In this document: piece after piece, positions 5,533 through 64,000 of the stretch
How positions within the stretch are numbered: position 1 is the first letter of the stretch
Layout of the letters: each line of letters starts with the position of its first letter
NCBI GenBank assembly: GCA_947374535.1
Contig: CANCCJ010000005.1
Span: 1-64,000 of the forward strand
DNA: 64,000 nucleotides
Direction of reading: 5' to 3'
Source: Comamonadaceae bacterium
Lineage (GTDB): Bacteria; Pseudomonadota; Gammaproteobacteria; Burkholderiales; Burkholderiaceae
The notes under the pieces: generated by a model
Databases searched by the model: none
Seen by the model: the letters and a program-made list of their open reading frames with translations, nothing else
Told to the model about the DNA's origin: nothing
Made by a program: the position numbers and the translations under genes

Positions 5533-7634
<2,102 letters not shown>

Positions 7635-62666: not shown

Positions 62667-63193
62667 GTTTCACCTGATTGCCAACGCAAACGGCTGGCGC
62701 TGTTCACACACAAGGTGTTGGCGATGTTCAGCGTGTTTTGCCGCGACTTGATGACCCAGCGGTCGCCGACTGTGCCTAAGTCACCGCGTTGGCTGATGTC
62801 GAGTGGCTCTGATTTGGTAAACGTCACTAGCAGCGGTGTTGGCAGTTGAGAGGATTGCAATACGCTCTGATTTACCTTTGCAACCAGTTGCCAGCCGCAG
62901 CTCCAGTCGTTGTCAGCGGGTGTTGCCCATGTGCAATCTCTCAGTCGTGACAGCTGTAAGGCCTCGCCACGTTGCAGGGCGCGCACGCGAGCTGTTTGTA
63001 AATCGTTCATCAGTTGGTCGCGAGCGGCTTCAACGCGGCTGCGTTCTTGCAGACGTTGCCAGCTGGGAATGGCTAACGACGTCATAACGCCAAGCAGGGC
63101 CAAACACACCAAGAGTTCAACGAGTGTGAACCCGCGTGACGTTGGGACCTGTGAGAGGCGTCGATGAGGCGTAAAAAAACCTAGAGATTGCAT
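62654..63193 (-). CDS. fimT: Pseudopilin FimT/GspH type
   Basis: A 179-residue prepilin: SRG|FTLVELLVCLALLGVMTSLAIPSWQRLQERSRVEAARDQLMNDLQTARVRALQRGEALQLSR, with Glu at +5 and the FimT/GspH helix. The C-domain is beta-rich with a few cysteines (LRDCTW, DWSCGW, GETCSN). FimT binds DNA in some competent bacteria. It is the first gene of the pilin set, 53 bases from nrdR. Confidence 0.87.
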   Translation of the reverse strand: MQSLGFFTPHRRLSQVPTSRGFTLVELLVCLALLGVMTSLAIPSWQRLQERSRVEAARDQLMNDLQTARVRALQRGEALQLSRLRDCTWATPADNDWSCGWQLVAKVNQSVLQSSQLPTPLLVTFTKSEPLDISQRGDLGTVGDRWVIKSRQNTLNIANTLCVNSASRLRWQSGETCSN

Positions 63194-63246
63194 GGTGCAA
63201 ATGCTAGGTTTTGAAGGGGCATCAGCGCATGGCTGAGACTCGAAAA

Positions 63247-63696
63247 CTACTTACGAACTTCGTCCACCAAGCTCTTGAAGTCGTCAATGTCTTCGAAGCT
63301 GCGATACACGCTGGCAAAACGGATGTAGGCCACTTTGTCGAGTTTTTTGAGTTCACGCATGACGAGTTCACCGATGCGCGTAGACGGCACTTCGCGTTGG
63401 CCCAAGGCGAGGAGTTTTTCTTCGATGCGCTCAATGGCGTTGTCTACTTGCTCGGTACTGACGGGGCGCTTGCGCAAAGCGAGGCTCATGGATTCGAGGA
63501 GCTTGCTTCGCTTGTATTCGATGCGGCGACCGTCTTTTTTGACGATGTTGGGAAAGCTCACATCGGCGCGTTCGTAGGTGGTATAGCGCTTTTCACAAGC
63601 CCCGCATTGGCGACGGCGTCGAATGGAGTCACCGTCTTCGGACATGCGGGTCTCGACGACTTGGGTTTCTAGGTGGCCGCAGAAGGGACATTTCAT
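63247..63696 (-). CDS. nrdR: Ribonucleotide reductase repressor NrdR
   Basis: A 149-residue repressor. The N-terminal zinc ribbon is [22 protein letters not shown] with the second pair in [14 protein letters not shown], followed by the ATP-cone domain ([45 protein letters not shown]). It senses ATP/dATP and represses nrd genes. In related genomes it follows glyA; that gene, if present, lies beyond the window. NrdR is well conserved here with no unusual change. Confidence 0.95.
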
Positions 63697-63733
63697 TTTG
63701 TGCTCTCTCTTTTGCTATTTTGCTGGGCTCGCA

Positions 63734-63807
63734 GAGGGCATTTGGTATTGGCCGCTTCCTCATGCTGGAGTACCAGAAATCGTCAGCGGCCAATACCAAA
63801 CACCCTC
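63734..63807. repeat. Long hairpin A with conserved loop
   Basis: TTTGGTATTGGCCGCT (63741-63756) and AGCGGCCAATACCAAA (63785-63800) are perfect 16-bp arms, with a further 5 bp (GAGGG/CCCTC) after a two-base mismatch. The 28-base loop (63757-63784) contains TCATGCTGGAGTACCAGAAA. Almost the same loop, reversed, lies in hairpin B. No T-run follows, so it is not a plain terminator. The 304 bases from 63697 to 64000 hold no convincing gene; a reading frame across them is rejected. Confidence 0.8.
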
Positions 63808-63906
63808 AGTCTGCGTCCGCACTTTGCTTCGCTCGCGCATTTCACTCGTGCCAGTAGTTCAGCCGAAGTTGCAACACAACGAGCGAACCATTTCTAACCT
63901 CAAACA

Positions 63907-63980
63907 GCGCGGGATATAGGCACGGCGGGTGATGATTTCTGTACCCAGCATGAAGAACCCGCCGTGCCTACATCCCGTGC
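63907..63980. repeat. Long hairpin B with the same loop in reverse
   Basis: Arms 63907-63930 and 63957-63980 pair at 22 of 24 positions. On the minus strand the 26-base loop (63931-63956) reads TTCATGCTGGGTACAGAAAT in its middle, matching the loop of hairpin A at 24 of 26 bases with two one-base gaps. The stem sequence (GGCACGGCGGGT next to the loop) is quite unlike that of A, yet keeps its own complement. This is copy two of the same element in inverted orientation. Confidence 0.8.
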
Positions 63981-64000
63981 CCTCTCCGGCGTGAACTCTT

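Follow-up and report, generated by a model that had tools for sequence, protein, structure and literature searches.

An inverted pair of hairpins upstream of nrdR belongs to a palindromic repeat family with a fixed inner core, interchangeable stems and constraint on one folded strand

The hairpins at the ends of IS200/IS605 and RAYT elements are recognised on one strand, with unpaired conserved bases. At the attC sites of integrons, the folded single strand outweighs the sequence of the stem; the outer ends are conserved and the inner loop is free. Kink-turns and the SECIS core are RNA motifs with tandem GA pairs, and the kink-turn additionally has a three-base bulge. Dispersed palindromes are best described for REPs, which have stems of 5-13 bp and a terminal GTAG or CGTC tag; in the CGTC superfamily, CGTC stands at the foot of an 8-9 bp stem with a loop of 4-5 nt. 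In-frame REPs occur within uvrA and within helicase genes, and one superfamily has no dedicated transposase (all according to the available part of PMC3733652). RPEs are palindromes inserted in frame in conserved genes of Rickettsia (available part of PMC10969869). Palindromic repeats are usually recognised by their stems and terminal tags, and a transposase is taken to account for them. In the repeats described here, stems are interchangeable, the inner motif is fixed, one strand is under constraint, and the loci are old, even inside genes, with no transposase linked in place. The question of whether such repeats are selfish or useful is therefore directly testable here.

The window, i.e. the whole stretch of 64,000 nucleotides that was analysed, contains two hairpins between nrdR (63247-63696, minus strand; TIGR00244, 193.5 bits) and the window end. 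Hairpin A (63733-63808) is assigned to the minus strand, which is the strand kept folded according to the family data, reads GATTT..CATGA and is also the strand of nrdR; the nrdR start codon lies 36 nt downstream. Its arms (63734-63756 and 63785-63807) are 91% complementary and form a helix of about 23 bp overall, with A.C and C.A mismatches on the plus strand and a perfect inner part of 16 bp (63741-63756 and 63785-63800). Its inverted partner, hairpin B (63907-63980), has arms of 24 nt (63907-63930 and 63957-63980) that are 92% complementary; here TCATG is on the minus strand and the plus strand is taken as functional. Both hairpins are backed by pairing of the stem and its mismatches, by folding (z-scores of -8.1 to -10.4 for the four strands tested, with 0 of 200 shuffles folding equally well) and by a covariance model (85.3 bits for A and 71.6 bits for B). 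In the single copy B, folding is slightly stronger on the TCATG strand (-54.3 versus -50.5 kcal/mol).

The loops of A and B are one sequence in opposed orientation, TCATGCTGGAGTACCAGAAATC at 63760-63781 on the plus strand and TCATGCTGGGTACAGAAATC at 63934-63953 on the minus strand; the loop pattern has two matches in the window and none in 100 shuffles. The core of A is comprised of TCATG (63760-63764), an apical stem-loop CTGGAGTACCAG (63765-63776), and AAATC (63777-63781), the core of B correspondingly of TCATG, CTGGGTACAG, and AAATC. A further small stem is found inside the loops of A and B (CTGG..CCAG and CTG..CAG). The outer stems of A and B are unlike in sequence, with pairing intact within each. 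The first-pass annotation of this DNA had described two hairpins with paired arms, near-identical loops read in opposite directions, and stems that differ between the copies yet stay self-complementary, and each of these descriptions is confirmed. The two hairpins are separated by a spacer (63809-63906, no strand assigned), and similar spacers are found in pairs elsewhere. Hairpin A is adjoined by an outer foot GCTGGGCTCGC (63722-63732, plus strand), which recurs at one class of copies, and an inner foot GTCTGCG (63809-63815, plus strand). The feet of this class are GCTCGC upstream (42 of 150 copies) and CTGCG downstream (40 of 150). No Rfam family reaches its gathering threshold anywhere in the window, and the six sub-threshold matches within 63650-64000 are weak and mostly resemble miRNA precursors. 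Between nrdR and a pilin-like gene, a smaller A/T-rich inverted repeat (63176-63212) is possibly an ordinary terminator.

Hairpins A and B are one inverted pair of a large palindromic repeat family of Limnohabitans, Rhodoferax and their kin. Scanned in one genome per species, the loop pattern matches at least 120 sequence stretches from public genomes; going by record titles, the carriers among the matches listed are with few exceptions Comamonadaceae (Limnohabitans, Rhodoferax) or Burkholderiales bins. Within these stretches, 126 of 137 complete exact loops are flanked by long paired arms, defined by at least 15 of 20 paired arm positions and not counting five loops cut by a locus end. The same test is passed by 71 of 3000 random positions and, among viral contigs used as a control, by 0 of 21 complete exact loops, one cut loop being left out. 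Seven of the 11 loops without arms lie in unrelated taxa and are probably chance matches. The 182 arm-bearing copies comprise 52 stem types that are less than 75% alike. The loop is hence not confined to the window, other copies have paired arms as well, and the stems stay unalike once more copies are found, all three of which uphold the first-pass claim of a conserved loop within covarying stems. A covariance model built from 53 diverse copies (51 of 52 nonredundant hairpins and the two of the window) detects 2 to 18 copies per genome in 14 genomes picked for carrying the loop. Within the genus, the model identifies 22 of 61 genomes as carriers, with 1-26 detected copies each, and no copy at its threshold in the other 39; within the order, 2 of 150 genomes are carriers, the query genome included. 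Plasmid similarity is limited to one chance-like match. A bin labelled Bordetella parapertussis (L111) has hairpins of the Limnohabitans type, and its label is probably wrong. We found no earlier description of the family in the open-licence PubMed Central literature; a prior report is possible.

Read on the TCATG strand, the unit consists of a helix, TTCC / GTCA (alternatively GC pairs), one pair that is either C-G or T-A, TCATR / AAATC, and a small apical helix. The first helix reaches at least 21 bp in 162 of 175 stems. In comparisons between loci, 84.2% of stem cells are paired, versus 55.3% after shuffling, and changes on both sides of the stem amount to 457 versus 140; sliding the partner arm, as a control for covariation, leaves pairing at 44% or less in all cases. 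The first hairpin at nrdR alone, present in ten distinct forms, contributes 25 both-side cells versus 7.9 shuffled. The combination of a conserved loop and compensating stem changes, proposed from two copies in the first-pass annotation, is thus found across the family. The apical stem varies in sequence and length among 304 distinct hairpins (CTGG-RGTA-CCAG, CGG-TTA-CCG, CTG-CGAG-CAG, GGC-GA-GCC), with loops of 18 to 27 nt and apical pairing retained; a near-palindrome, CTGGRGTACCAG, is part of the commonest loop type (209 of 304 hairpins). Two loci (L237:1368-1448 and L238:1247-1327) harbor a long apical helix of the ACTCG..CGAGT type, in which the usual apical sequence is gone and TCATG and AAATC are kept.

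Copies in close proximity are predominantly inverted: 54 of 63 neighbours are in +- orientation, nine are on the same strand, and none is in -+ orientation, the +- partners being 106 to 256 bp apart. At two non-orthologous loci of one genome (L325 and L326), the whole pair including its spacer aligns with 75% identity over 309 bp, so the pair has spread as a unit. Among 79 copies whose orientation was scored from the feet, one (L336 of genome G219) has its core the other way round, as a template-switch loop inversion would give; the orthologs L321 and L354 are not flagged by the same test.

The strand under constraint can be read from the mismatches within stems. In 275 hairpins in strict register, the TCATG strand has 367 A.C, 29 G.T, and 156 other mismatches. 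An A.C mismatch on one strand is a G.U pair on the other, and the excess of A.C over G.T therefore indicates that the complement of the TCATG strand (GATTT..CATGA) is the strand kept folded. The asymmetry amounts to 96 A.C versus 8 G.T in a nonredundant set of 70 hairpins, 47 of which are richer in A.C and two in G.T. By class, the A.C:G.T counts are 88:4 for left and 115:11 for right members of pairs, 164:14 for single copies and 21:1 for copies in coding sequence, the latter ratio resting on few independent events; by locus strand, they are 171:11 and 196:18. When each stem position of an ortholog set enters the count a single time, A.C remains at 83 versus 13 G.T (binomial p ~1e-13, kinship ignored), with one ortholog set reversed (1 A.C, 4 G.T). 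For the first hairpin at nrdR, whose favoured strand is antisense to the gene, the ratio is 26:1. In 159 other inverted repeats no such bias is seen (75 GT and 64 AC); these repeats have no orientation mark, are read on the locus strand, and control for general mutation bias only. The complementary strand also folds better in 65 of the 70 nonredundant copies, the TCATG strand in five. It is thus the GATTT..CATGA strand whose folding is under purifying selection. The earlier claim that a folded single strand is selected is supported by both the mismatch asymmetry and the compensatory stem changes; that the constrained strand is the complement of the TCATG strand is new relative to the earlier reading.

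Whether this strand is kept as RNA or as DNA was evaluated by a fit to eight mismatch classes, with energies averaged over alternate hairpins among the 70 and alternate positions in their stems. At a transition bias of 1.44, derived from the flanks, lnL is -181.8 for RNA, -216.7 for DNA, and -249.0 for no selection. The RNA fit is ahead as long as the bias does not exceed 3 and falls behind at about 4 or more. The bias measured at 6823 four-fold sites is 2.1 (G001 versus G004, 28% divergence, uncorrected), where RNA is still ahead. RNA is favoured over DNA because its energies fit better at this measured bias, and the folded form is most likely, if not certainly, RNA. We note that read-through messages are insufficient for the antisense cases, i.e. 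the first hairpin at nrdR and the copies in coding sequence, which call for antisense transcripts or for a role of single-stranded DNA or at the DNA level. It is mainly owing to these cases that our confidence in an RNA element is moderate.

The copies are inherited at fixed loci. We grouped loci by their flanks for Jir61 (G001), the close bin G004, the genomes G210, G212, and G219 (copies among the matches listed, plus fdhA and hrpA), and the window. All 72 usable loci fall into 19 orthologous groups and none stands alone; three of 75 loci with an off-pattern core (L189, L206, L358) were left out. The pair in the window corresponds to an nrdR-side locus present in all six. Recent movement was not seen among the 72 loci, all of which are common to several species. 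In 26 orthologous hairpin sets, differences affect 21 of 1848 core sites (1.1%), 888 of 6468 arm sites (13.7%), and 1483 of 9173 sites of the outer flanks (16.2%, plus 2514 gapped columns); these rates are pairwise, not independent, and based on one fixed stem register. Core conservation is somewhat inflated, since the models and patterns used for detection themselves contain the core. In six groups with a missing pair partner, we read the losses as deletions, truncations or absences and not as decayed cores, and no copy in these groups combines intact arms with a ruined core. An altered core is found in one orthologous locus pair (L189 / L206). The nrdR loci (17 of 20 extracted) include some with both hairpins, some that lack one or both by deletion, and two with almost no intergenic space. 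The element is not essential, given that copies have been deleted in relatives and that none reaches the threshold in 39 of 61 genus genomes.

Several copies reside within genes. In-frame matches of the covariance model are found in UvrA (L178, frame open at the locus edge), in the formate dehydrogenase alpha gene fdhA (L183, ortholog L195), and in HrpA (L188, ortholog L204). The earlier statement that the element is not coding sequence hence applies to the window, where gaps between the two aligned loops break the frame, and does not apply to the family in general. A double-length UvrA of 2158 residues (L190:1510-7986) contains four in-frame hairpins; the frames at L191:147-6716 (2189 residues, three copies) and L192:1911-8249 (2112 residues, four copies) resemble it, as read without a family search, and in these double-length frames of UvrA type (L190-L192) one in-frame hairpin is oppositely oriented. 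In fdhA, 19 of 20 loci could be parsed, and a linker contains the hairpin in seven of the 19 aligned genomes and lacks it in 12; the alleles differ by the entire hairpin, both arms included. The absence of both arms and loop from these alleles rules out that the stem was copied from the target by fold-back synthesis. In hrpA (14 of 30 loci parsed), two species groups share site and core and have differently paired stems. The 5' half of the core is read in the frame TCA-TGC in fdhA and CAT-GCC in hrpA, the 3' half in one common frame. Conservation of the 5' half in two frames implies that nucleotides are kept, not the peptide alone, and protein selection on the inserted peptide was discarded on the same ground. 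No clean target duplications were recognised at the fdhA, L202, and L194 sites. Cargo genes between distant copies were considered for four loci (L138, L126, L232, L233) and dismissed, as inspection by eye identified only ordinary or antisense frames.

For intergenic copies, gene context was assigned by inspection of reading frames, with genes named where a family matched. Of the 12 intergenic loci in G001 and G004, 11 have at least one copy whose favoured strand runs with a neighbouring gene, L202 being the sole exception. Examples are copies upstream of nrdR, polA, and thrB and copies 3' of lysA and purN. Within genes, the favoured strand is antisense to the message for the copies in L178, L183, and L188 and for three of the four in L190.

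Retention of the family could be explained by a selfish element of REP or REPIN type, whose single-stranded DNA hairpin would be recognised in trans by a Y1 (HUH) or other transposase and which would be kept through past or slow mobility; we regard this as a possible but rather doubtful account. Consistent with it, inverted pairs are the repeating unit (54 of 63), a pair with its spacer was duplicated at L325/L326, the strand constraint is independent of the direction of transcription, and at a transition bias of about 4 the DNA energies fit equally well. The in-frame placement of copies in uvrA and in a helicase gene also has its counterpart in REPs (available part of PMC3733652). A Y1 gene is present in 47 of the 61 genus genomes, including 21 of 22 carriers versus 26 of 39 non-carriers (p = 0.011, kinship ignored) and 12 of 12 genomes holding at least five copies; it is possible that a Y1 protein acts in trans, as in REP systems. 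The first-pass annotation proposed to look for an associated transposase gene of RAYT-like or IS200/IS605 type; none of five Y1 loci in four genomes, however, has a copy in the surrounding sequence, covered for at most 1.5 kb to each side. Moreover, all 72 usable loci are common to several species, the core of a selfish element is not expected to persist at each old site, and RNA energies fit better at the measured bias. A Y1 transposase acting in place was rejected for Jir61, in which the Y1 gene (beside a gltB-like gene, by eye) has its own short palindrome and no copies near. Palindromes of other kinds were observed at Y1 genes: at L145:1440-2235, behind a single Y1 gene, there is a short AATTAATTGGG..CCCAATTAATT palindrome that bears no relation to the hairpins, and at L147:550-672, a different palindromic repeat (TGTAGGAGCGGTCTCYGACCGCGA) with several overlapping inverted copies adjoins a Y1 fragment.

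The remaining accounts are far less probable. Several copies lie, by inspection, between convergent genes, as would suit transcription terminators or hairpins at mRNA ends, but others are found between divergent starts (polA / thrB, L185), upstream of nrdR or inside genes, and a terminator would not need a fixed internal loop. A consensus scan of 63600-64000 identified no promoter-like site and no terminator-like site (GC hairpin with T tract), in line with the earlier remark that the hairpins are unlike ordinary terminators, and we give this account little weight. Even less weight is given to replication template switching between the arms, which would keep stems perfect without selection for folding. 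Template switching can create and maintain stems (available part of PMC8794818), and the loop is inverted relative to the feet in one of 79 copies (L336). The mechanism nevertheless predicts equal numbers of A.C and G.T on the strand defined by the core, as opposed to the 367 and 29 observed, with the asymmetry present on both locus strands, and it leaves the conserved core unexplained; the asymmetry speaks against template switching as the sole cause, and a contribution may exist. Least probable of all is a duplex DNA-binding site, such as an operator or a site for a nucleoid protein, whose flanks are palindromic by chance. The near-palindrome in 209 of 304 hairpins would agree with such a site, while the apical part varies in sequence and length (loops of 18 to 27 nt) with pairing kept, and mismatches are asymmetric between strands. 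The protein-binding palindrome put forward in the first-pass annotation is, in this duplex form, a poor fit to both properties.

The explanation we prefer, with a probability of roughly one half (0.52), is a mobile-derived RNA element that was retained by the host and has a putative partner acting in trans; the strand follows from the mismatch asymmetry, RNA from the energy fit, and the partner is inferred. The unit would consist of a free-sequence helix of ~21-27 bp, a fixed asymmetric internal loop and a short free-sequence apical helix, often with an inverted partner 106-256 bp away. Such units would once have spread as whole hairpins or pairs, some of them landing in frame in genes, as presence and absence at the same site indicate, and would since have been inherited at fixed loci and mostly kept intact or deleted, judging from the sample of loci described above. 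The feature kept would be the folded strand GACGAUUU-[apical]-CAUGAGGAA, most likely as RNA. With its fixed core set between free helices, the element suggests recognition of the core by a protein that requires a helix on either side, putatively a host RNA-binding protein or ribonuclease. Recognition would act on a leader, 3' end or antisense RNA that carries the core, and in the window possibly on the nrdR leader by way of hairpin A. A wider and distinctly more tentative proposal is that the family is a new, dispersed class of structured RNA in freshwater Comamonadaceae: a mobile-derived repeat adopted by the host, with a fixed GA-rich core on interchangeable helices at as many as some twenty loci, antisense copies in genes for DNA repair, a helicase, and formate dehydrogenase among them. 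One putative protein or nuclease might join these loci into a genome-wide RNA regulon or processing system.

Compared to known systems, the family shares with the ends of IS200/IS605 and RAYT elements that one hairpin strand with a conserved core matters; it differs in that no copy lies beside the Y1 genes looked at and no recent movement was seen. By our own reading and not from a computed structure, the internal loop of the favoured strand could pair as GA/AG on either side of a C-G pair, followed by U.U and U-A. GA/AG pairs next to U.U between two helices resemble the kink-turn and the SECIS core, whereas the three-base bulge is absent, two GA modules are in line, the helices are free in sequence, and the element is present in multiple copies. 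Similar to RPEs, copies are inserted in frame in conserved genes, here uvrA, hrpA, and fdhA; unlike RPEs, as far as the available part of PMC10969869 describes them, they occur in other bacteria and are mostly intergenic and often paired, with constraint on one strand and a conserved core. REPs, BIMEs, and REPINs are likewise short palindromes and inverted dimers, mostly intergenic and in some cases in frame in uvrA or helicase genes, and the family shares with REPINs that two inverted palindromes form one unit (54 of 63 neighbours in +- orientation and a duplicated pair). In contrast to REPs (available part of PMC3733652), its stems are long and free in sequence, a tag is missing, a fixed internal loop lies near the apex, carrier genomes have 1-26 detected copies, and loci are shared between species. 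Within 22 nt of 150 copies, GTAG is found upstream of two and downstream of one, GGAG upstream of 14 and downstream of five; CGTC is found upstream of two and downstream of 13 of 150 copies, and stems and loops are too long for the CGTC superfamily. With attC sites the family has in common the importance of the folded single strand, and it shows the opposite pattern of conservation: the conserved part is the inner loop, as seen in the 53-copy alignment and in the 304 hairpins, which agrees with the distinction from attC already drawn in the first-pass annotation. With structured RNAs, finally, it shares compensatory changes together with tolerance of G.U pairs on one strand.
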